A DNA stretch of 64,000 bases, taken from Lophium mytilinum (taxonomy: Eukaryota; Ascomycota; Dothideomycetes; Mytilinidiales; Mytilinidiaceae). The notes under the pieces are model-generated. The model did not search any database and was not told the DNA's origin. It saw only the letters and a program-made list of their open reading frames with translations. Numbering within the stretch: position 1 is the stretch's first letter; every line of letters starts with the position of its first letter. Position numbers and translations under genes: made by a program. The DNA lies in the NCBI GenBank assembly GCA_010093605.1, contig MU004197.1, positions 434,001-498,000 on the forward strand. The letters run 5' to 3'. This document shows, piece after piece, positions 2,328-63,911 of this stretch.

Positions 2328-2839
2328 TCAAGTGCCGTATCCAGCTTCCCCATGGAGCTTCCCACAATCCGTCTTGGTGCATATGCCACGCTTCCTATGA
2401 ATCTTGCACGCCTTGTAATGGCATCGAAGACGCGCTAACTTGCAAGGATCGCAGGGAAAAGCCCCATCGCAGCCTTTGCCGAGTTGGTGGCAGCTAACGC
2501 AGCATGGCTTCCGATTGGCATAGGGTTCGAAAGCCTTCTCAACGACTGGTTGGGATTTCGGTCTGTATACGAGATCCGTACGAAGGTTATAGGCGCGAAG
2601 ATTGTCATTCTCTTCCACCACACCATTGACATCCCCGATCATCGTTTCTCGGACGTTCTTGAGGACATCGTTCTCGATGCGCTAGAAGGGAACCTATATT
2701 AGCTTGAGGAAAGTGGAATGTGTGAGAGGAACCATCTAACCATCTTCTCCACCGCCTTGCGCAGTTCTGCGTTTTCAGCGACAGCATCTTCATACTTCTT
2801 GTTGAGAGCTTGGAATTCAGAGTGGGACAAGTTGGCCAT
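2328..2839 (-). CDS. Small coiled-coil protein with Zn2Cys6-CCCH C-terminus
   Basis: Two exons (2741-2839 and 2328-2681, intron 2682-2740 with GT...AG), 150 aa. The N-terminal ~75 residues are charged and heptad-like (predicted coiled coil). The C-terminus carries the exact spacing of a fungal binuclear zinc cluster: C94-x2-C97-x6-C104-x5-C110-x2-C113-x6-C120. It is followed at once by a CCCH finger, C125-x8-C134-x4-C139-x3-H143, ending in HGEAGYGT. An in-frame upstream ATG at 2866 would add nine residues; both have good contexts. Paralogues with the same C-terminus lie at 58.5 and 63.3 kb and a decayed copy at 25.2 kb. DNA or RNA binding is likely from the motifs, but Zn2Cys6 clusters usually sit at the N-terminus, so function is unknown. 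The intron call is supported because the relic keeps the same acceptor-exon junction. Confidence 0.8.
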
Positions 2840-3133
2840 TGTGAATGGATGGACGAGGATACTCATGGTTGTGAAAAGCTGATGTGAAGAGGAGAAGATA
2901 AGGACAAGGTCTTGAGGCTAAGTAGTTGAGATAGGGCATGTGGCCTTCTGCCAAGACTGGACCTCAGACGTGCGTCATGAATCTGTATTCCCTTCTCGTG
3001 CGTTAGCTCTGGAAGCTTCACTTTCACCTCACTTACTCTCCATATTCCACAAGTAAGTCTCACCACCAACATTGTCTATCCATATACCCTAACACGCATC
3101 CATCGACGGAAGTCTAAATCCTCATTCCTAGAC

Positions 3134-4109
3134 ATGGGGAGAAAAAGCTCCAGCTTCAACCTCGCCGAAGCGCGCAAAGGCTTCGACGAACTCCTTCGCC
3201 TGAAGCCAAACATACCCTTCGAACTGTGCGACACCTGCCAAAGCGCCGACAGCGACGAACCGCCGCATCCTCCGTGGCTATGCCTCCATCAAGACCCAAA
3301 GCAGTTTGAGCTGTCCGCTCGTGCCTACAAGGCACTGGCGAGAAAGCAAATCTGTGCCGAGTGCTCGCAGCGTCGCCACGTTCACAACCCACATTCGAGC
3401 TGCGATTGCCCGTACAAGTCTGAAGAGAAGCGCCAGCAGTTGAGAGAGAACAGAGAGAAGAGACTCGCGGCGTTAGTCAAGAAGGAGCAGGCTATCGCGA
3501 AGAGGTTCGCGGAGCGGAAGGCGAAAAAGAGAAAGCCCAGACGTAAGTCCTAATCCAAGCAGCACATGCGTTTGTGAAGTCCATATCCTAACTTCTCTGT
3601 CTCCAGGCGGAAAGAGGAAGGGTCCTCCTTTCGAGATCGAGCCCGCTCTGAGGGGGTTTCAAGCGGTCCTCCGAGTATACCCAGACCTAGTCTTCGAATC
3701 TTGCACTCTCTGCCAGCAGGATACTCACTCCTACTCCCCCCATCCCCCGTTGCTCTGCTCGCGCCAGACACCGGAGCAATTAAAGATGTCGCAACAATGC
3801 TGGAATAGATTGATGGATACGCAGCCATGTGGTCGCTGCAGAGGCAGTTACCGGGTTCAAGTGGCACACCAGTCGGCCGATTGCCCGTTCATAAGCCCAG
3901 AGGAACGTGAGCGCATCAAGTCAGACCAGAGGGCACAAAAAAATCTGCGGTTGCCGGCGGTCAAGAGCGCCCAGGCTAATGGAGAGTCTCCTCGTCAGGA
4001 AAGGGCAAGACGACGAGCGAGGAATGGAGGCGTTGATCATTCGGGTACCTTGGCAACACAACAGCAACCTGCATCCACGCAGCAACCTTTGCCGGCATCT
4101 CCCTACTAA
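3134..4109 (+). CDS. Protein of two duplicated Cys-rich modules, unknown function
   Basis: Exons 3134-3542 and 3607-4109 (64-bp intron, GTAAGT donor, CTAAC branch point), 303 aa. Each exon encodes one version of the same module: an acidic/hydrophobic lead (ARKGFDELLR / ALRGFQAVLR), then C-x2-C, a PHPP-x-LC segment, a second C-x2-C, and a CPY/CPF segment followed by a basic helix. The intron falls between the modules, so an exon-plus-intron duplication is likely. Six or more cysteines per module suggest zinc binding. The first module ends in a very basic Lys/Arg stretch that could be a nuclear signal. It is transcribed divergently from the zinc-finger gene at 2.3-2.8 kb with under 300 bp between them. 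I do not recognise the family; the start at 3134 has an A at -3. Confidence 0.75.
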
Positions 4110-24705: not shown

Positions 24706-25165
24706 GGTGGTGGTTTGGAGGTTGGATGAGATGATTTGAATGAGGAATGTAGATAAATGGGATTGGACGTTAAAAAGGTGGGGAGAGAGGGGGGATTAGA
24801 TATGACACTTCTGGGACGCTCAAGTAAAAATGAGGGTTCTTTGATGATGCTTGATATTTGATGGAAAAGAGATAGAAAATCATGGCCGGAATTCTAATGT
24901 CAATTCCGAACAGCGCCGGGAATCTAGAGCCGTGGGTATTGTGATGAGTAGCATCCTAGAAGGCCCTCCCATCTGAAATACTGTTCGAATGGGACCACGT
25001 TCATACAAACTGATTGCTTTTGCACGAAGAGAGGCATGGAAGTCGCGACAGAAGCCTTGGAGGTTGATTTCCGCTAGGCCACAAGGAGTCTAGCGAACAC
25101 TTCGACCCCATTCTTACTGAACTTTAGAGCTCTGGAAGTAACACATTATACCCAGCTTCTTCTAG
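24706..25165. other. Intergenic region upstream of the alcohol dehydrogenase
   Basis: About 460 bp. Likely promoter of the leftward dehydrogenase. The last ~50 bp may contain a faint remnant of exon 1 of the zinc-finger relic that follows. Confidence 0.35.
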
Positions 25166-25495
25166 CGCATTAAGAACAAGGGCATTAAGATTGTCCAAGA
25201 AACAATAATTGGGGATAGTATTGCTATAGTAGAAGAGAATAACAATCTTTACGCCTATATTAGTTGTACAGAGCTTGTATATAGACTTGTATCCTAATAG
25301 GTTATTAAGAAGGCTTTTAAACCCTATGCCGATCTGAAGCTATACTGCGTAAGTTGCTACTAATATAGTAAAGGCTGCGATAGTTTTCCCTATACATGAG
25401 CGGGTCTTTTATACTAGCACAAGGTATGCAAGATTTATTAAAAGCGTGGCATATGCACTAAGAATAATTGTAGGAAGCTTTATAGGGCACGCTAT
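25166..25495 (+). pseudogene. RIP-degraded relic of the Zn2Cys6-CCCH gene
   Basis: Plus-strand sequence in one frame aligns along its length with exon 2 of the 2.3-2.8 kb gene: QETIIGD versus RETMIGD, VEENNNLYAY versus VEENDNLRAY, KAFKPYADLK versus KAFEPYANRK, YCVSCY versus CCVSCH, and CKIY-KRGICTKNNC versus CKIHRKRGICTKTDC. The exon edge is kept too, as it starts right after a TTCTAG acceptor. It has several in-frame stops (for example at the position of CHQLG and in the zinc cluster), and most differences are C-to-T or G-to-A, leaving a very AT-rich stretch. This fits repeat-induced point mutation of a duplicate. Not functional. Confidence 0.85.
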
Positions 25496-33560: not shown

Positions 33561-34355
33561 CTGGTACGCTGTGAAGATGAAGAAACTCTCTTGGGAACTA
33601 AAAAAGGAACGACGTAAGTGGTTCCATCGCGTATGTGAGAACTTTAAAGCGTGTCTCTAACTAGTATTTGGAGAATCCGGTTCATTCAACTAGCATCTAG
33701 ACAATCGCTCAGGCTTCTATATTCAACAAGAAACCACTTCTCGGTCCTTCAAATTCTTCCTCCCGGATCGCCAACTGCTCGGCCACTTGTAACACTGTAA
33801 CAACGTCTGGGTCGAATCGGGTATCCGCTCGAGAAAGCCTCGCTCTTGGCGTGCATGAACTCCGCCACGAAGCCGTCTCAGCCTAGAACACCACGCTGCT
33901 TCAGCCTGTGTACACCAGCACCAACCTCATTACAAACGGCGTTCTTCGAGCCAGCTCACTTCTAACTCCAGTGTGTTCGCGTCTTGCTCGTGTGTCCTTC
34001 AGTGGAAGTGCGCGCACACGTGAGAAAGCCGACATCGCGAGGTGGTACCAGACGAGGCTGCAGCGCTTCCAGCCTCACGCAATCATTATTGACGCCATCT
34101 TCACACTACCAACTCTGGAGCTTTGAATCGAAAAGAAGTTGCACCCGGTTGCAGGCTCTAGTGGTATTTCGGACAGCTTCCGACCATCCCAAGGGACTAC
34201 CACTTCAGTATCTTATTAAGCGACTTGCTTCCGATATCGTGAGCTTCGCATCTCGTTGGCCGCCCTCTGACTCAACTGAGGTTCCTCGGACAGCGTCATA
34301 TCAAGCTGAAATCAAGCTATCTTGCTGTACCTGCACTTGCGACCGGATCCCAATC

Positions 34356-35900
34356 ATGCAACGAGATACGGCGCTCACGTTCGGGGACATTCATGGGTCT
34401 TTGGAGGCTTTCCAAGCTAGCGTGGACGAAATACAGAGACTTGCCATGGTTTTTGAACCTGATTCTATGGCGTCCTTTCAAGCTGGGGCCAACGGTGTCC
34501 CTAGCTTTACCCGACTCAAGGAAGCTACGAATGACCATTCGAGAAACTTTCGCCTACGTCATCTCGTCCCTCATGAAAAGCCAATGTCAATACCCGGACG
34601 CCAGGCGCCTCCTAACACTGGACGAGAGATACAGATACACCTCCGGCTTACAGATCTTTCGGAGTATGTACACTCGCAACCCTACGTTGCAGTCTCATAT
34701 ACCTGGGACCACGTCAAATCACACAAATTTGAAGACGGAGACGACCCTCTTCCGGAATACTATATTTGGACAGGAGAACACGCCTATCGCCCAGCAAAAT
34801 GCCACGTCGAAGTCCTTCATAGAGCTATGCGTTTTGCTGCTGCAAAGCTACCTCAGCCGCGAATTTGGATCGATCAAGAATGCATAGAACAGGACAATCC
34901 TGACGATCTTGAGAACCACTTGCAGATAATGCATAAGATATACTCTGAGAGTTCGTTTACTGTTGCGGTTTTGTCTTCGACAATCTCCACGCAAGGTCTC
35001 GTCGATGTTCTTGACGCATTCCTCCACCAGGATCCCGCTACTCTTCCATTTGCTTTTGGGACAATCGACCCAAACCGTCAAGCCAGGGAATTCCAATTGG
35101 CAGAGGCTAAACTGAGGGCACTCGACCCTCTCGACTTGGGACGTTGGCAAAATCTGTGCCCCGGGGTCGCACGTGACTATTTGGCCATAAGTAACCCAGA
35201 AGAGCACCAGAAGCTACTAAACACTCTTGACATATACCTTATCCTCAGACGTGTCCAGAGAACCTTCGATTATATCTCACAAGACAGATGGTTTAAGAGA
35301 ACGTGGACTTTTCAAGAGAAACACTGTGGATCACGTCTACATTTCCTGATTCCCATCGGCACGGCCATTCAATCGAAGAGACTAGAGAGAATCGGCGGAG
35401 ATATTTGCCTCGAGAAGCTTTTCCTTTCTCGGAAGATGTGGCGATGGAGCGACCACAGCTGGGAGAGCACACGAGGCCTTGCAAATCTGCTCGAAAACCA
35501 CTTCGCTCTCCCACCTTATGAACCACAGGGGACACTGCCACCACATTCACAAGCCGCATTAAGAACCGGCTCTAGTTCGAATCAGACTTTTTTCGGTGCT
35601 ATGCAAAAGACACACCAGGCTATGGAGACCTGCGATAACCTGGTTGTAGCTGATCGAATAGCCATATTTGCTAGCGTCAATAACTTCCCCACCCGACTAA
35701 AGTCTACGTTACTCAATCGAGAACGATACAGCTATAGCACGTGTATTCTGACCCTCGCTCTCAAGAACTCTGGATGGTTTGTCACCCACACCCTTGAACT
35801 GCAGCAGCCCTGGGGTCTTCTCAATATGACGCTGGAAGAGGCCCTTATCAACTTAGAATACTACTCAGGATATATGAACTGGACAGTCCCAGGTTGGTAA
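34356..35900 (+). CDS. HET-domain (heterokaryon incompatibility) protein
   Basis: About 514 aa from the ATG at 34356. The HET core is clear: YVAVSYTWDH (110-119), then VEVLHRAMRF and RIWIDQECIEQ (169-179), then MHKIYSESSFTVAVL, the usual order in this family. HET proteins trigger growth arrest or cell death when genetically different hyphae fuse; partners are highly variable. An in-frame ATG at 33984 would add 124 residues of unfamiliar, low-confidence sequence, so the later ATG, which matches where similarity to the broken upstream paralogue becomes clear, is preferred. A possible C-terminal exon in another frame (about 36029-36267, WGVATVSGRLYLRHFTS) could follow through an intron starting near 35893. 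Cytoplasmic by default; regulation unknown. Confidence 0.75.
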   Translation: MQRDTALTFGDIHGSLEAFQASVDEIQRLAMVFEPDSMASFQAGANGVPSFTRLKEATNDHSRNFRLRHLVPHEKPMSIPGRQAPPNTGREIQIHLRLTDLSEYVHSQPYVAVSYTWDHVKSHKFEDGDDPLPEYYIWTGEHAYRPAKCHVEVLHRAMRFAAAKLPQPRIWIDQECIEQDNPDDLENHLQIMHKIYSESSFTVAVLSSTISTQGLVDVLDAFLHQDPATLPFAFGTIDPNRQAREFQLAEAKLRALDPLDLGRWQNLCPGVARDYLAISNPEEHQKLLNTLDIYLILRRVQRTFDYISQDRWFKRTWTFQEKHCGSRLHFLIPIGTAIQSKRLERIGGDICLEKLFLSRKMWRWSDHSWESTRGLANLLENHFALPPYEPQGTLPPHSQAALRTGSSSNQTFFGAMQKTHQAMETCDNLVVADRIAIFASVNNFPTRLKSTLLNRERYSYSTCILTLALKNSGWFVTHTLELQQPWGLLNMTLEEALINLEYYSGYMNWTVPGW

Positions 35901-57024: not shown

Positions 57025-58180
57025 TGTTATGGAATATCAAAGATCTCAGGAGGTTCTTTTTTACGGAGGGTGATATAGTCTGCATGGCTTTTGACATCTT
57101 GTCTTAATGATTTTGCGCCTTTAGGGGCACTCAAACGGTAGCATCGGCGTTTCAGAACTAACCCTAATCGAGCGTGATCCATACCTCTATGCGATTCCAG
57201 TGTTGTAGGAAGCTGCTATGCTCCGTGACCTAATACACGATGCGAGGCTTTTGACATCATGTCTTAATAATTTTGGCCTTTGTCAGGGCACTCAAACAGT
57301 AGTATCGGCATTCCTAAACTACCCCCAATCGAGTCTAATCCGCATCTCTATGCGATTCCTGTGTTATAAGAAGCTGCAATGTTCCTCGACGTAATATACA
57401 ACTCGAGGCTTTTAACATCGTCTCTTAATGATTTTAAGGCTTGTAAGGACACTCAATAAGTTGCATCGGCGTTCCAAAACCACCCCCAATCGAGTCTAAT
57501 CCACATCTCTATGCGATTCCAGTGTTGTAGGAAGCAGCTATATTCCGCATCCTAATATACAATGCGAGGCTTATAACATCGTGTGCAATAATTTAGGGCC
57601 TTACAAGGGCATTCAAACGGTGGCATCGGCGTTCCAGAGCTGCTTGCTATGGAGTGTAATCGGCATGTCCGCCTAAGTTCAGTCCCGTAGAAAGCTACTT
57701 TTGGCCCCAAGGTGATATGCGCTGCATAGCTGCTGACTTCGTATGTCCATAATTTAGAGCTTCCTGAGGGCACTCAAACGGTAGCATTGGAGATCCAGAA
57801 CTGCATGCTATGGAGTGTAATCGGCATGTCCGCCTAAATTCAGTCCTATAGAGAGCTGATTTTAGCCGCAAAGTGATATGCGCTGCGTAGCTTTTGACTT
57901 CGTATGTCGATGATTTAGAGCTTTTTGAGGGCACTCAAACGGTAATATTGGAGTTCCAGAGCTGCATCCTATAGGGTACAAACGACAGGTCCGCGTAATT
58001 TCATTTCTGTATAAAGCTTCTTTTGGCCACAGACCCACATATGCTTTTAGCTTTTAACTTCGTGTTTCGAAAATCTGGAGCTCTTTGAGGGCACTCAAAC
58101 GGTAGCATTGGAGCTCCAGAACTGCGTTCTTTGATGTCTAATACGTATCCTGGTGTAAATGAGGTCCCCTAGATAGTCTT
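57025..58180. repeat. 161-bp satellite, about seven tandem copies
   Basis: The anchor ACTCAAACGG or its close variants recurs at 57129, 57290, 57451, 57611, 57772, 57933 and 58093, i.e. every 160-161 bp. The first three units share CCCCAATCGAGTCTAATCC (type A); from the fourth on, units carry GGAGTGTAATCGGCATGTCC (type B). No unit encodes a stable frame, since the period is not a multiple of three. Confidence 0.95.
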
Positions 58181-58532: not shown

Positions 58533-59393
58533 TCAATGCAACACCTTCTCCTTTCCGATAGACATGGCCATGCCGGCATCTCCGCAGTCGTAGCCCTCTT
58601 CGTTATGTACGAGATTGCAGTTCTTGCGCGTACAGCCATGGACGTAGTTGTGGTGAGCCTGGCATTGCTGATAGACGCAACGGCTGTTGGCTTCGGTACA
58701 GTGGCCGCATTGAACGCTACCATCGCAGACTATCCTGTCCTTGTAGCATAGGATGCACCTGAGCTTGCGGCCGGTGGGTGGTTGGCTGGCGACATTGTTG
58801 TAGTTGTCGTGAATGCTCATTGCCTCCAGCTGAGAGATAGCCTCTGGTACGAGTCTGGTGATAGCCTTGAGCTTCGCGTCTAACGCCTTGCTCTTTTCCT
58901 CCTCGGCACGAAGCTCGTTGTCGCGGGTGCCGACATACTCGGCGACGTTTCTCTGGAGCTCGTCGTGATCCTTCTGCAAGGCTTCGTACTTCTTGTGAAG
59001 CTCCATAGCCAGCTTATGTTGTTCTCTGAGCACTACAAGCTCTTTCTGCTGCGTCGAGATGCATCGCTCGCGCACTTCCGCAGTGCCTTCGGCCCAAGCG
59101 AGAAGCTCCAAAGCCTTTTTCTGTTGTTCCCTGAGCACAACAAGCTCTTTCTGCTGTGTCGAGATGCATCGCTCGCGCACTTCCTCAGTGCCTTCAACCA
59201 AAGCGAGATGGCGGCTTGCCACTTTGGCGACACATGCGTTTCGATCAGAATTGCTCTTCAGTACTTTCCACACAGGGTTCTGCATGCCGCCAATCTCTGC
59301 AACTTTCCAGAGGAGCTCCTGTTCCTCCATCGTCAAATAGTAGTGAATCTCTCCACACCCCTCGCAGTGAGTCTTGGGGTACTGATAAGTCAT
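58533..59393 (-). CDS. Coiled-coil protein with Zn2Cys6-CCCH C-terminus
   Basis: Intronless, 286 aa. N-terminal CxxC module (C10, C13) in CEGCGEIHYYLT followed by EEQELLWK, shared with the 63.3-kb paralogue. Residues ~60-190 are a coiled coil that contains a 35-residue tandem duplication (EVRERCISTQQKELVVLREQ at 71-90 and 106-125). The C-terminus has the exact Zn2Cys6 spacing C213-x2-C216-x6-C223-x5-C229-x2-C232-x6-C239, then a CCCH finger C244-x9-C254-x4-C259-x3-H263 and EEGY. Likely a zinc-dependent nucleic-acid-binding or scaffold protein that dimerises through the coiled coil (inference). The 172-bp duplicated segment lies just upstream of the start. Function unknown; the layout is unlike standard Zn2Cys6 activators. 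Confidence 0.82.
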   Translation of the reverse strand: MTYQYPKTHCEGCGEIHYYLTMEEQELLWKVAEIGGMQNPVWKVLKSNSDRNACVAKVASRHLALVEGTEEVRERCISTQQKELVVLREQQKKALELLAWAEGTAEVRERCISTQQKELVVLREQHKLAMELHKKYEALQKDHDELQRNVAEYVGTRDNELRAEEEKSKALDAKLKAITRLVPEAISQLEAMSIHDNYNNVASQPPTGRKLRCILCYKDRIVCDGSVQCGHCTEANSRCVYQQCQAHHNYVHGCTRKNCNLVHNEEGYDCGDAGMAMSIGKEKVLH

Positions 59394-59420
59394 CGCGACA
59401 GTCGGTGTTTGACTCGATGG

Positions 59421-59764
59421 TGGGTCGAGGTTGAAGTAGGCGTCGTGTGCGCGGCGACGTTGGTATTGCAGTGGGATCTCGCAGGAGTGGAGATGGAGTC
59501 CAGAAGTTTGGAGAGTGACTAGAGTGATGAGAGGAGAGTGACTTCGTAGCTGCGCGTGCTACTAGTTTGGTGTTGAAGTAAGGTACTCGCTGTGGGTCAA
59601 GGTTGAATTGGGCGGTCTTGTGTGCGGCGACGATGGTGTAGCAGTGAGGTTTCGCAGAAGAGAAGATGGAGCTTTGAAGTCTGGATACTGATGAGCGTGA
59701 TGAGAGGAGAGGGGTTTCGGAGCTGCGCGTGCAACTGCTTTGGTCTTGTAGTGAGGTGCTGCAA
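59421..59764. repeat. 172-bp direct tandem duplication upstream of zinc gene
   Basis: TGGGTCGAGGTTGAA at 59421 and TGGGTCAAGGTTGAA at 59593 start two diverged copies that share GCGGCGACG, GATGAGAGGAGAG and GTAGCTGCGCGTGC-type blocks. They cover the likely promoter and leader of the 58.5-59.4 kb gene. Confidence 0.85.
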
Positions 59765-60307
59765 GTGGCGCGTTGAGCTCAAGAGCTTGGAGCTTGGAGC
59801 TTGACAAAGTCGGCAGGCGTTATTTCACAGGCGATCGGAATAGGCTTTTCCCGATATGACGTCACTGCTGAGAGAGTCGAGTTTTCGGTAGTGCTGATAT
59901 AGCTGGAGCTGAGCGAGGTGAAATCGTCAACGCCATAACCCTAGGCCATGGAACGTGAAGACTTACGCTTAACCTAGCAGACTCCACCTTGGCTTCTACT
60001 CAGATATGCCTGGCCTTCCCCTGTACGCCGTTTGACTTGGGAGAAACGGTTAGTTCGTGGTATAGGTGGAAGTTAACGGGATGTCACCTGAACCATCGCC
60101 AGGCACGCGCAAGTCACGTGCTCGCCAACTCTTTAGCGCCTTGGCGACAATCTACTTCCAATATTAGACTCGCCTCTCTCGCAACTCCGTCCTTCCTCCA
60201 CCCTCCTCCATCAACTTTCGACCTTCTTCCTCTCCTCGGCATGTCACATTTATGGACCTTTTTTCCTTTCTTACTTGATGCTTCATAATGGCCGGCTTAT
60301 GTAGAGA
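59765..60307. other. Intergenic region
   Basis: About 540 bp; GTCACGTGCTC near 60115. No gene recognised. Confidence 0.4.
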
Positions 60308-60688
60308 TCAGAGCTCCGTCGAATGGCACCGCCTCAAAGACTGAGTGTCCCGGCACCTTGCACTGATTTGGCCCGGGTAAGGCACTCCGTACTTGGCCGA
60401 ACCATTGGAGAACTCCTCACACCTTTCACTGTTGTTTTGAAGCCTCTCAAGTTCTCGCGCAACATCATTCGGTTCTTCTCGTAAGCGGCCCATTCTTCTG
60501 TGTTTGGGGGCAACAGACACGGGAGTTTGCAGTCGCGGGATTTTCACGTTTTGCAAGGGATTGCGCATCCAGCCGGAGGCTTTCCAGTGGCATGTCTCTA
60601 CTGCCATAACGATCAGGTCGGGAGGTGGTTGATAGTCCCCTGCTGCGACACACCAGAAGGATGGTGGCGACACTAACAAGACTTTCAC
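60308..60688 (-). CDS. Hypothetical small protein
   Basis: A 126-aa frame starting MKVLLVSPPSFWCVAAGDYQ, with five cysteines spread along it (C13, C33, C89, C112, C120). The start is only weakly hydrophobic, so secretion is doubtful. The stretch PPPDLIVMAVETCHWKASGW looks protein-like. An upstream GTAAGT-like context suggests it could be part of a spliced gene. No family recognised; kept because no other gene explains the region. Confidence 0.3.
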   Translation of the reverse strand: MKVLLVSPPSFWCVAAGDYQPPPDLIVMAVETCHWKASGWMRNPLQNVKIPRLQTPVSVAPKHRRMGRLREEPNDVARELERLQNNSERCEEFSNGSAKYGVPYPGQISARCRDTQSLRRCHSTEL

Positions 60689-61200
60689 GTAAGTAGTAAA
60701 GGATCTGCCTTCTCTTCGTCTGCGATGTTGCTAATTTCCCCTCACTACCTTAGATCTTCAACTTGAACCAGGTAAGTGTTCCTCCAGTACATAGTTCCTC
60801 TGTCTATAATACATGCTGTTATCTTTAAACTCATTGAATCTTCTCTGCAATGTGATTGTATGCTGGCAGGCCTTCCGGTCAGTGAAACTTGTGTCTTCTC
60901 AGTTTCACTTGTTGATTCACGTCATAAACTCATAGCCGTGATCAGCATTATTGATTGACACGCACGCGCTCCAAGATTCTACCATGCGCAGCTCGACAAA
61001 GCGCGCCTTTAACAGAAAAGAATCGTTTCAAAGGTCAGTCACGAGGCTCAAAGTTGAGATATGTGGATGCATTTTGAATTTCTTAAGTCTAGTGTATAGT
61101 GTGTCATCCATGCCTTTGTCCTGTCTATCAGAATCCTGAGAAGCAGCTCAGGAACGCTGCAGGACAGCCACATCGAGAAATCTGTCCACCAACTCAGAGC
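60689..61200. other. Intergenic region
   Basis: About 510 bp, moderately AT-rich, no supported gene. Confidence 0.4.
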
Positions 61201-62037
61201 TCATCCCAGTCTGTCAGCTATATCAGCATCAGAAGTCCTACTTCCCAGGGCTTGGGATAACATCTTGTCGGGGGCAAGAGTCTTTGGGCGAAGGCCAGCT
61301 ATGTGAGGAGCGGCCTGAGGGTAGCCTGGAGAGGCCGCTGGGGGGCGTGAGAGGGGATGGAGCGCGGACCGGACAAGAGGAGTAGAAGTAGCCTGCGCAG
61401 TGATGTTTGGCATTGCGGACAGAAGTGAAGACCGCGCGGTAGGATGGCTAGCTGGCAGAGCTGTGGGGTCGAGGCCCTGGCGGTAGTTGGCCGCAGAGAT
61501 GACGCCAGGCACAGCCAACTCTTGGAGAGATTTGATATCTTCCAGGGCAGATTGGTGAAGTTCGACAAGGGCCTGATGACCTTGGACAAGGCTCCCGAAG
61601 CTTTGGAGAAGGCTCCCGAGGCTGGATCTGAGCTCTCTGACTTGTCTCTGGTAATACTGTATCGTGGCCTCATCCTCCTCGGCTCCCCGATTGTTGTCGC
61701 GGGCCTGCTGGCGCATTGCTGATACCCTACGTGCCTCCGTCGCGGATGCGAGGTCGAATTGGTTCTCGAGGTTCTCAAGGTTCGCAAAGTGCCTGGCTTG
61801 GTTGGCCATCTCGGTGGCAAGGCCTTCCATCTCTTTCTCTCTGTATTCCGTTTCGAGGCGATCGCCACACTCGCAGAGAGTTCGATGGTTAACGAGGAGA
61901 CGCTCTTCCAGCTCGTTGGCTTCTTTGTCCGAGTTGGCTGCTCGGATTCCTTCCAAGAACTCGCCAGTGCTCGTTAGCTCAGAAAGGCGTCCATCGCAGT
62001 GCCTACACACCCCAGCTTCAGGGCGCTCGTCCGACAT
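61201..62037 (-). CDS. CxxC/coiled-coil protein related to the zinc-finger cluster
   Basis: Intronless, 278 aa from the ATG at 62037 (AAAG before ATG gives a good context; the frame is open to 62142). The N-terminus carries C11-x2-C14 (VCRHCDGRLSEL) and C55-x-C57 (LCECGD), laid out like the CxxC...C...C start of the 63.3-kb protein and with the shared AAN segment after it. Residues ~58-175 are long, charged and heptad-like. The C-terminal ~100 residues are Ser/Pro/Ala-rich and disordered-looking. It lacks the Zn2Cys6-CCCH end. Possibly a truncated or diverged member that could heterodimerise with its neighbours; this is inference. Confidence 0.65.
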   Translation of the reverse strand: MSDERPEAGVCRHCDGRLSELTSTGEFLEGIRAANSDKEANELEERLLVNHRTLCECGDRLETEYREKEMEGLATEMANQARHFANLENLENQFDLASATEARRVSAMRQQARDNNRGAEEDEATIQYYQRQVRELRSSLGSLLQSFGSLVQGHQALVELHQSALEDIKSLQELAVPGVISAANYRQGLDPTALPASHPTARSSLLSAMPNITAQATSTPLVRSALHPLSRPPAASPGYPQAAPHIAGLRPKTLAPDKMLSQALGSRTSDADIADRLG

Positions 62038-62346
62038 CTTTGGAAGAGTTGCAAGGGATTGGCTAGGTTTGCAGCCGACGAATACAGGACCTTGCCGGTG
62101 GATGGGTTCTTGAGGAGGGGAGGTGTAGAGAACCTGGAGCAAAGAGGACTTGACGGCGGGGTTACTTCACATTTTCTTTGGCGCAACCTGGTCTAGTGAA
62201 TCAACTATGCCAGGTCAGGTGACATGGCCGAGCTTTGCCGCCAGTGCCCAGCAAAATTCAATCATCGGTTCCTCATCACACCTTTCTCTCTTCTCGACCA
62301 ACTTCTTTTTGCCCCCCACGCCCTTGTTTCCTCACTTCTCTGGGGG

Positions 62347-62438
62347 CAGTTGATGACCTTTATAGAGTCAGCTGTTCTCCCTTCTTTGGGAACAGCTGAT
62401 GATCTTTACAGAGTCAGCTGTTCTGCTCAGCACTAGTT
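62347..62438. repeat. 46-bp tandem repeat, two copies
   Basis: CAG(T/C)TGATGA(C/T)CTTTA(T/C) AGAGTCAGCTGTTCT occurs at 62347 and 62393; the three differences in this stretch are all C/T. Confidence 0.9.
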
Positions 62439-62452
62439 GCGAAGGGCAGTAC

Positions 62453-62636
62453 GTCGATCTCCTTAACGGTTTCGAACCGGGAGAGGCGTTTCGGGGTTTG
62501 TCGATCTCTAAAACGGTAGCGAACCGGAGAGACGCGCTTTGCGTTGATCTCCTCTCGGTGGCTGGACGGAGAGGCCACTCACAGCGACGCAGATCTCCTA
62601 ACGCTCAGTCCCTTGGAACGGTCGCAGCCGGAGAGG
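62453..62636. repeat. Degenerate 43-47-bp tandem repeat, four copies
   Basis: Units start at 62453, 62500, 62543 and 62588, each opening G(T/C)(C/T/A)GATCTC and carrying an ACGG...CCGGAGAG-type segment. Confidence 0.75.
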
Positions 62637-63314
62637 CTCTTCTCCTGCCCGGACTTCTTTTCGCTGCCTCGCAAAACGAGTGGTCTGTGGCTATCTCCTC
62701 AATAATTGGGTTAACTTCCTTCTTTCTCTGCGCAGCGACAGACGAGGATGCAAGGGCGCCTGAGAGGTCACAGTTCCTCCTTTGCATGGGGCTAAGCTGC
62801 CTTCGTTCTTCGAAGTAGCTTTCCCGCGGCATCGCCGTGTCCTTCGAATACTGCCGCTGTGTTCAAGGTTTTTCGCTGACTAGGTAAGTCAGGTATGTTG
62901 TCCCTCCCCCCCCAGCGCCGAGTTCGCACTTCTTCGCAGTGCTGGGGACCAGTAGCCTTCGGGCAAAGCTAGGACGAACTCATCTTGTATACAATTCACA
63001 ATCAATCCTCTACGTTCAAATATATCTGCCTCCTTGAGGTGATTTGGTGATGTCGTGATGTTTTTATTACTCGACCAGCGACGCCTGTGTTTCTCAATGC
63101 CCTCTTAACTCTTCGTGCTTCTAATCTCTAATAGCGCCTTACAACTTACATACTCCGAAGCTCATCCGACCATCTCCTCAGCGCAGGCAACAAATACCCC
63201 GCAACCTTTGATACACCACCTGGGTCCACACCTTCTACGCCACGAAAGCATTCTCCATCACTCTACATCCATCTTCGGATTAAGAACGATACCTACACAA
63301 TCCTTCACCCCAAC
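62637..63314. other. Promoter/leader of the 63.3-kb gene
   Basis: About 680 bp; the last 200 bp are pyrimidine-rich as in other leaders here. Nothing else recognised. Confidence 0.4.
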
Positions 63315-63911
63315 ATGCTTTCCTTCTCCACCGCCTTCTGTGGCGCCTGCGGTCAAACCCACTACGACATCTCCTCAGAGGCCGAGGTGAAGCTCTGGAA
63401 AGATCTGGAAGCTGCCAATGCCTCCGCCGACTCCCGCGCCGTCTCCGCCATCATCGCCATTCTCCGCGATTGTTCCGCGGCCAAAGACTGCCATGCCAAA
63501 CACACTATCCATCATGCGATCAGGCTCGAGGGTGAACGCATGAAGCTAGAGCAAGAGACGTTCGACCTGAAGGTGGAGATCAAGGATCTAAAGAAGGGAA
63601 ACGAGCGCCTCCCCAACGAGCGGTTTGATGGGCGGATGGAAAATCGAGACTTGGGCGGGAAGAAAGAGATGCTGGTTGGCGAGAAGGAGGAGGCGTCTCT
63701 GCCACGGAAACTGGTCTGCCAGGCCTGTTGCGAGAGCTCTGGAACGCGAAACAGCTTGTGTGATGGGAGGTACCCGTGTACCGAGTGTATGGCACAGGGC
63801 TATACGTGCTTCTACAAGAAGTGCTTCAAGACACGCAGCGGTGTTAGATGTAAAAGCTCTACGTGTACAATGTGGCACGGCGAGGAGGGGTATAGACATG
63901 GCGAGTTCTAG
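63315..63911 (+). CDS. Coiled-coil protein with Zn2Cys6-like and CCCH C-terminus
   Basis: Intronless, 198 aa. N-terminal CxxC module (C9, C12) in FCGACGQTHYDIS followed by EVKLWKD, and C53/C59 that may complete a zinc site. A helical region (~65-128) has coiled-coil character. The C-terminus repeats the family pattern: C135-x2-C138-x10-C149-x5-C155-x2-C158-x6-C165, then CCCH C170-x8-C179-x4-C184-x3-H188 and GEEGY. The loop after the second cysteine is four residues longer than in the two paralogues, so the cluster may fold slightly differently. Function unknown; zinc binding and nucleic-acid or protein contact are inferred from motifs. Good start context (ACATGC). Confidence 0.82.
   Translation: MLSFSTAFCGACGQTHYDISSEAEVKLWKDLEAANASADSRAVSAIIAILRDCSAAKDCHAKHTIHHAIRLEGERMKLEQETFDLKVEIKDLKKGNERLPNERFDGRMENRDLGGKKEMLVGEKEEASLPRKLVCQACCESSGTRNSLCDGRYPCTECMAQGYTCFYKKCFKTRSGVRCKSSTCTMWHGEEGYRHGEF

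Follow-up and report, generated by a model that had tools for sequence, protein, structure and literature searches.

The 64-kb window analysed here (the whole 64,000-nucleotide stretch of Lophium mytilinum DNA) contains members of a locally confined family of coiled-coil-like proteins that end in a composite zinc unit, in which an apparent Zn2Cys6 cluster is joined to a putative CCCH-like knuckle. The family consists of 13 units together with relics and truncated relatives, all found in one stretch of 221 kb (C17:436-657 kb) in a genome of 43 Mb. The claim of an earlier note on this DNA that there is a local family with a fused C-terminal unit behind a coiled-coil-like part is thus borne out, for a family larger than the three genes that it had described. 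The component motifs are of known kinds; what is unusual is their fusion into one unit and the restriction of that unit to a single small region. The open reading frames of the window proteins A, B and C (Table 1) are present at the expected positions and free of internal stops.

Table 1. Features of the composite-unit family and its relatives in the window (positions of the window; aa, amino acids).
Feature	Position	Strand	Remarks
Protein A, 286 aa	58533..59393	-	N-terminal CxxC domain, coiled-coil-like middle, C-terminal Zn2Cys6 + CCCH-like unit
Composite zinc unit of A, C-terminal	58584..58769	-	Spacings 2-6-5-2-6-4-9-4-3 (Zn2Cys6 part exact)
C-x2-C-x3-H...C domain of A, N-terminal	59205..59375	-	
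Tandem repeat x2 in coiled-coil part of A	58997..59208	-	Shift 105 nt = 35 aa = five heptads; 89% identical
Protein B, 198 aa	63315..63911	+	Layout as in A; x10 in first Zn2Cys6 loop
Composite zinc unit of B, C-terminal	63705..63899	+	Spacings 2-10-5-2-6-4-8-4-3
C-x2-C-x3-H...C domain of B, N-terminal	63330..63518	+	
Protein C gene, two exons	2328..2866	-	Exon 1 (2866-2741) coiled-coil-like; intron 2740-2682; exon 2 (2681-2331) with unit, then stop
Composite zinc unit of C, C-terminal	2331..2513	-	Spacings 2-6-5-2-6-4-8-4-3 (Zn2Cys6 part exact)
Pseudogene relic akin to C	25159..25487	+	72% DNA identity over 341 aligned columns; internal stops
Neighbour protein, 278 aa from its ATG	61201..62037	-	CxxC and CxCG near start, coiled-coil-like, without composite unit

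The conserved end of A, B and C reads C-x2-C-x6-C-x5-C-x2-C-x6-C-x4-C-x8..19-C-x4-C-x3-H-x-E, with x10 in the first loop of B. The earlier note had called the Zn2Cys6 spacing exact in two of the three, which is correct for A and C; the second motif that it gave, C-x8/9-C-x4-C-x3-H, is present in all three (x9 in A, x8 in B and C), and the two halves, said to be joined within four residues, are separated by exactly four in each. Across the family, the spacings x2, x5, x2, x4, x4 and x3 are invariant (13/13), and all ten zinc-ligand positions are present in 11 of the 13 units, the copy at C17:504 kb lacking one ligand and the copy at C17:656 kb lacking two. The ten-ligand search pattern, which was drawn up after the family had already been seen, gives 11 matches across the six frames of C17:434001-688500 (254.5 kb; 352,551 residues); a chance origin of the motif is ruled out because the pattern never appears in 50 shuffles of those same frames. 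No Pfam model covered the composite unit as a whole in scans of family members, and it probably folds whole, as a single three-zinc unit.

Amino-acid change in the unit is selected against: dN is lower than dS in all 27 unit pairs with computable dS (non-independent pairs of about 60-70 codons each), dS being saturated in the remaining 51 of 78 pairs. The members are old, strongly diverged sister genes in a tight neighbourhood. A decaying array without present function, in which the open frames are remnants, might explain the relic in the window, a second relic near C17:500.45-500.62 kb and the ligands lost at C17:504 kb and C17:656 kb, but it is most improbable, given the retention of every ligand in 11 of 13 units despite such saturation and the consistent excess of dS over dN.

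Zn2Cys6 binuclear clusters have the spacing C-x2-C-x6-C-x5..12-C-x2-C-x6..8-C. All six cysteines of this part are present in 11 of the 13 units; the first loop is x6 in 11, x7 in one and x10 in one (B), and the spacing between the fifth and sixth cysteines is x6 in 11 and x8 in two. In a search with the unit profile, PUT3 matches at E 1.1e-5 and further Zn2Cys6 proteins match more weakly; Cys-rich knottins match it as well (E 0.014-0.063), and therefore Cys spacing inflates the profile scores. Eleven of the 13 members match Pfam Zn_clus (PF00172) at E<=10, and of ten members scanned singly, seven match it at E<=1 (two over the gathering cut-off, five under), the other three units matching no Pfam family at E<=1. 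To judge from these comparisons, the first half represents a diverged form of the fungal Zn2Cys6 cluster; the earlier note had named a merger of the profile with a known domain family as grounds against its reading, and for this half the profile does merge.

In Gal4-type clusters, the DNA-contacting basic residues sit in the loop between the second and third cysteines. The 11 six-residue loops of the family have K or R at positions 1 to 6 in 0, 6, 3, 6, 4 and 0 cases, respectively; the residue just before the third cysteine is basic in none of the 11, and the conserved basic pattern of Zn2Cys6 clusters is not found in them. This lack of conserved basic residues, the lengthened first loop of B, a layout mirrored with respect to ordinary zinc-cluster regulators and the lack of an activator domain in A, B and C (Pfam scans of the full-length proteins detect neither fungal_trans nor another regulator domain) would all accord with a unit that derives from a Zn2Cys6 cluster, has lost DNA binding and serves as a zinc-stabilised protein-protein interaction domain, in proteins that act as coiled-coil scaffolds or adaptors. 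Such a change of role is rather unlikely: K, R or H occupies loop position 4 in 8 of the 11 loops, and the C-D/P-G..PC..C core is retained as in DNA-binding clusters.

CCCH zinc fingers have the spacing C-x7..9-C-x4..6-C-x3-H. In the second half of the unit, the four ligands are complete in 12 of 13 members and x4 and x3 are found in 13 of 13; the first loop has 8 or 9 residues in five members (A, B, C, 556 and 559) and 10-19 in the other eight. Three residues past the first cysteine there is an aromatic residue or His in 11 of 13, which resembles CCCH fingers. Among 12 isolated second halves (the 656-kb member left out), one matches any CCCH model at E<=10, namely that of the C17:556 kb member (Nab2-like CCCH, E 9.7e-5), and the 62-aa unit of this member falls below the cut-off of both PF22683 and zf-CCCH_12 (PF25542), with 16.9 and 12.9 bits versus 27. 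No PDB sequence matches the CCCH-like half at E<=10. Kinship with the two proteins of the genome that exceed the zf-CCCH_12 (PF25542) cut-off was rejected, no such fusion being visible by eye in the stretches examined. The CCCH homology of the second half is thin, though the ligand spacing largely fits; the double identity put forward in the earlier note stands for Zn2Cys6 by profile and Pfam and for CCCH by ligand spacing, but does not extend to CCCH homology. The C-x4-C-x3-H end and the aromatic or His residue after the first cysteine resemble Nab2-like fingers, and TTP-like fingers as well, and might indicate RNA-binding proteins in which the CCCH-like half touches RNA on a structural platform formed by the Zn2Cys6-like half; with the single model match, the lack of a PDB match and a first loop of 8 to 19 residues, a spread that does not resemble a conserved surface for reading RNA, this is improbable.

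The N-terminal CxxC domain that the earlier note ascribed to the family is present in 9 of the 13 members, and a profile search finds none in C. The third gene of the note, at 2.3-2.8 kb, fits a two-exon model of C picked by eye from splice signals, with a 59-nt intron (GTTAGA...CTAG) whose donor is not strong; this structure appears to be the best reading of C. By a crude, home-made heptad score for which shuffles of A are the sole reference, the 95th percentile of the shuffles is passed by 12 of 17 ORFs, the exceptions being B, 505, 509, 559 and 563. In-frame tandem duplications of 35, 76 and 49 aa occur in the middle parts of A, 499 and 509, respectively. The neighbour protein had been thought to share the N-terminal layout, which is correct as to its cysteine motifs, but it is absent from the matches of the family N-terminal profile at E<=20; its middle has 30% identity (E 8.4e-6) to the coiled-coil part of the unit-bearing member at C17:504.3-505.3 kb, a kind of score that coiled coils inflate.

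A whole-genome search with five unit-containing queries gave matches at E<=0.001 on C17:436-657 kb only. A 36-residue tblastn match lies at C17:657234-657341 (E 4e-4), and C7:1691541 gave a weak match (E 1.63) with one stop. Two candidate dispersed copies were rejected: a Zn2Cys6 ORF at C2:608748, of which the unit profile covers the first half alone (positions 5-38), and C20:302438, where the N-terminal profile gives 6 bits, under inclusion. The 616-kb member, as the single-protein query of one search each, found no relative in prokaryote and viral collections at E<=1e-3. As far as these searches reach, the family is confined to one region of this genome, and it is possibly lineage-specific. 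Truncated members occur at C17:498, 565, 567 and 570 kb; neither the C-domain profile, run with filters off, nor tblastn at E<=0.05 detected C-terminal exons behind them. A repeat near B (62882-63065) was rejected as a mobile element: its three copies (85-100%) all lie at C17:496.9-507.4 kb, C19 and C13 carry two further copies that are short and weaker, and the repeat is read as a local segmental duplication.

Between family members lie A+T-rich blocks with RIP-type dinucleotide ratios, and the window contains a HET-domain gene. These surroundings, the restriction of copies, relics and truncations to one 221-kb region and the in-frame duplications in A, 499 and 509 might point to a gene array for recognition or conflict in which copies arise and are lost in place, whether its role lies in heterokaryon incompatibility, in drive or in protection from mobile DNA. 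Such an array is improbable, however, as dN is below dS in every scorable unit pair, without a sign of diversifying selection there, and a single nearby HET gene is commonplace in such fungi.

The layout of the family has precedents. PacX of Aspergillus nidulans, a nuclear protein of the zinc binuclear cluster type that has homologues in the Leotiomyceta and is thought to oligomerise, has 661 aa with an N-terminal coiled coil, a Zn2Cys6 cluster towards the C-terminus and about 190 residues beyond the cluster; Ume6 and Czf1 are further cases of a zinc cluster towards the C-terminus behind a coiled coil (PMC4832277). The family shares this order but differs in that its cluster is near the very C-terminus and its genes are multi-copy at one locus. 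In the PacX cluster, two Pro precede the first Cys and neither of the two residues ahead of the fourth is Pro (PMC4832277), whereas 0 of 13 family rows show this Pro pair ahead of the first Cys (by eye) and 9 of 13 members have Pro directly before the fourth; judged by sequence, the family appears to lack the features of a PacX orthologue. The term CCCH is not mentioned in the main text of the PacX paper (PMC4832277).

Proteins combining a zinc cluster with C2H2-like fingers, a category that merges C2H2, CCHC and CCCH fingers, are a recognised fungal class of dual-specificity factors, present in 140 of 191 fungal TFomes with up to 23 genes (Shelest 2017, PMC5415576). In its A. nidulans examples, two C2H2 fingers precede the cluster and, with one exception, the block is N-terminal; in the passages considered here, CCCH fingers are not counted separately (PMC5415576). 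The family resembles the class in having two unlike zinc motifs of DNA-binding type per protein and differs in having a single CCCH-like knuckle after the cluster, at the C-terminal end; by the standard of the class, the Zn2Cys6 half is accepted and the CCCH half enters by ligand spacing alone. With PUT3-type regulators (PF00172) the family shares the six-Cys core, but its basic loop is eroded, its cluster C-terminal and its presumed dimerising part ahead instead of behind, and eight of ten members scanned are under the Pfam cut-off. With Nab2-like CCCH (PF22683) and zf-CCCH_12 (PF25542) it shares the C-x4-C-x3-H end, weakly matched by C17:556 kb, and differs in that its first loop is long and variable and that the motif occurs once, joined to a Zn2Cys6 core. 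The family is a variant within known architectures, both coiled coil first with zinc cluster last and mixed zinc-finger proteins being precedented; because of PacX, Ume6 and Czf1 (PMC4832277) and the dual-specificity class (PMC5415576), the earlier note's "unlike any family" is too strong.

The best explanation, with about an even chance of being right, is that these are dimeric nuclear DNA-binding regulators with a three-zinc C-terminal unit, and that the truncated members are possible modulators. Six cysteines of the cluster would hold two zinc ions and the knuckle one more; the coiled coil would pair family members, so that paired units might contact short DNA half-sites in the manner of Zn2Cys6 clusters, with the knuckle bracing or widening the contact, and the N-terminal CCHC-like domain may bind partners. 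Members that have the N-terminal or coiled-coil part and lack the zinc unit could associate with full members and weaken their action; the pacX1 truncation, which keeps the coiled coil but not the zinc cluster and shows partial dominance (PMC4832277), is counted as a precedent for this explanation. Counting against the explanation are the poorly kept basic loop, the absence of regulator domains from A, B and C in the Pfam scans, the heptad score that B and four other ORFs do not pass, the knottin matches of the profile and the three units without a Pfam match. A bolder and quite unlikely extension is that a new three-zinc domain belongs to lineage-specific pairing proteins long held in one 221-kb neighbourhood as a combinatorial, self-antagonising set of full and unit-less members, diversified by in-frame coiled-coil duplication, possibly against mobile DNA or for recognition.

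The silent sites of these paralogues are largely saturated, and none was found outside one small chromosomal region. Should the proteins bind DNA as pairs and have natural partners in truncated form, the locus would be a compact model of in-place regulator diversification and self-inhibition; if they are not, it would be an example of a Zn2Cys6 cluster put to another use.

The three proteins that the earlier note had described as ending in a composite zinc-ligand unit, A, B and C, are present in the window at the places it gave, as a check of the reading frames confirmed, and belong to a family whose existence is well supported. The window corresponds to C17:434001-498000 (C17 is contig MU004197.1). 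Within C17:434001-688500, the part read in detail, 13 units lie in open frames, and members are named here by their C17 position in kb, variably rounded. The remainder of the contig was covered by whole-genome searches of the 43.2-Mb, 24-contig assembly. With five single-protein queries bearing the unit, these searches gave matches at E<=0.001 only on C17, from 436 to 657 kb. Weaker matches elsewhere comprised eight Zn2Cys6 places (E 0.001-0.23; two each on C12 and C2, one each on C7, C9, C11 and C3), all of which are also among the genome's Zn_clus places, as well as C20:302438 (E 0.018, two stops) and C7:1691541 (E 1.63, one stop). At least 150 Zn_clus places exceed the cut-off, a lower bound from scoring 150 of 281 candidates, and two of these 150 are family members. 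No comparable family or array was found in the open-access literature searched.

Coordinates of family members, relics and truncated relatives
Feature	Position	Remark
A	window 58533-59393 (-)	ends in unit
B	window 63315-63911 (+)	ends in unit
C	window 2328-2866 (-)	ends in unit
495.2-kb protein	window 61201-62037 (-)	without unit
13 units in open frames	C17 ~436, 493, 498, 499, 505, 506, 510, 557, 559, 561, 569, 617, 657 kb	
Relic	window 25159-25487	
Tail-only relic	near C17:500.45-500.62 kb	
ORF with Zn2Cys6 half only	C17:563.8-564.4 kb	upstream N-terminal-like piece behind in-frame stop
Degenerate cluster	C17:545.6 kb	
ORFs with N-domain, without unit	C17:498.4, 565.7, 567.7 kb	
ORF with coiled-coil-like part only	C17:570.8 kb	

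The unit has the consensus RKLxCxxC-x6-CDGxxPCxxC-x6-CxYxxC-x(8-19)-C-x4-C-x3-HxExGY, and all ten ligands are kept in 11 of the 13 copies; Ser replaces the first Cys in the 504.5-kb unit, and the 656.5-kb unit, which is probably decaying, lacks two ligands. The units differ in length at three points only, namely in the first Zn2Cys6 loop, with 6, 7 or 10 residues, in the interval between the fifth and sixth Cys, with 6 or 8, and in the first CCCH loop, with 8-19; the spacings 2, 5, 2, 4, 4 and 3 are identical in every unit. Because spacing is fixed across the join, the sequences argue for the Zn2Cys6 half and the CCCH-like half forming one folded unit. The unit profile matched PUT3 (E 1.1e-5), followed by two fission-yeast regulators (E 0.0046 and 0.0072) and, more weakly, LEU3 and CBF3 subunit B; a Zn2Cys6 origin of the family is well supported. 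Matches to knottins (E 0.014-0.063) warn that Cys spacing alone scores. A CCCH model was matched by one of 12 isolated CCCH-like halves, that of the 556-kb member (Nab2-like, E 9.7e-5; zf-CCCH_12, E 0.025; both also seen in the member's own scan), and no sequence of a solved structure matched this half at E<=10. The unit is likely to hold a third zinc site.

The N-terminal CxxC domain (N-domain; C-x2-C-x3-H-[YWFE]...L...C in 11 sequences) occurs in nine of the 13 unit-bearing genes and in some members without the unit; in the 505-kb gene it spans an intron, read by eye. It is taken as unnamed because member-by-member Pfam scans gave just two one-member matches (E 0.056 and 0.086) and its profile found nothing better than E 0.2 in the PDB. 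One N-domain used as a whole-genome query matched at three places, none of them outside C17. The best gene model for C has two exons and contains the coiled-coil-like part and the unit, without the N-domain. The middle parts grow by in-frame duplication, with shifts of 105 nt (A), 228 nt (499 gene) and 147 nt (509 gene); the shifts in A and the 509 gene equal an integral number of heptads, and that in the 499 gene does not.

Copies that lie farther apart on the contig tend to share less sequence identity (Mantel r -0.25, p 0.018, 10,000 permutations), as expected under local duplication. dS could be computed for 27 of 78 unit pairs (median dN 0.69, dS 1.96), all with dN<dS, and the other 51 are saturated. 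The 561- and 569-kb members are the closest pair by unit (54%), and their whole proteins share 39% identity over 274 aligned residues (dN 0.63, dS 2.34). A protein kinase gene adjoins the first member, and ordinary genes lie between members (amino-acid permease, multicopper oxidase, myosin, MINDY deubiquitinase, HSF, P5-ATPase). Two A+T-rich blocks inside the region (approximately C17:514-527 and 584-604 kb; TA/AT 1.4-1.9) have RIP-like dinucleotide ratios.

Other repeats were seen nearby: a tandem array at window 57086-58142, between an APH-like gene and A (unit approximately 160 bp, successive copies 77%); a tandem duplication directly upstream of A (59412-59760, shift approximately 173 bp, 79%); and a 184-bp sequence (62882-63065) with two more good copies near family genes (C17:502.9 and 507.2 kb), to which C19 and C13 have weaker matches of short length. 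Another small local family consists of two neighbouring ORFs for small, basic, Cys-rich proteins (window 3134-3553 and 3615-4016, +; 34% identical; no Pfam match over the cut-off) and a third weak relative at C17:273204-273386. Pfam identified a heterokaryon-incompatibility (HET) domain in an ORF at window 33966-35897 (+), with E 2.8e-19; taken with the genome's wealth of zinc clusters, this gene suggests a filamentous fungus.

The profile searches also recover their own seed sequences; beyond these, the independent additions above inclusion were 545.4 and 563.8 kb for the C-terminal unit and, for the N-domain, 565.7 and 564.5 kb. The truncated 567.7-, 570.8- and 495.2-kb proteins end in sequence resembling other members' linker just before the unit, as judged by eye from pairwise alignments.

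Factors combining a zinc cluster with C2H2-like fingers (C2H2, CCHC and CCCH merged) are recorded for 140 of 191 fungal TFomes (Shelest 2017, PMC5415576). DNA binding is the best guess at the family's putative activity. The order of coiled coil and then zinc cluster resembles that of PacX, a working nuclear regulator with its cluster towards the end, whose mechanism its own paper calls unclear (PMC4832277). Since a PacX version that keeps the coiled coil without the cluster is partially dominant (PMC4832277), it may be speculated by analogy that the truncated members are modulators.
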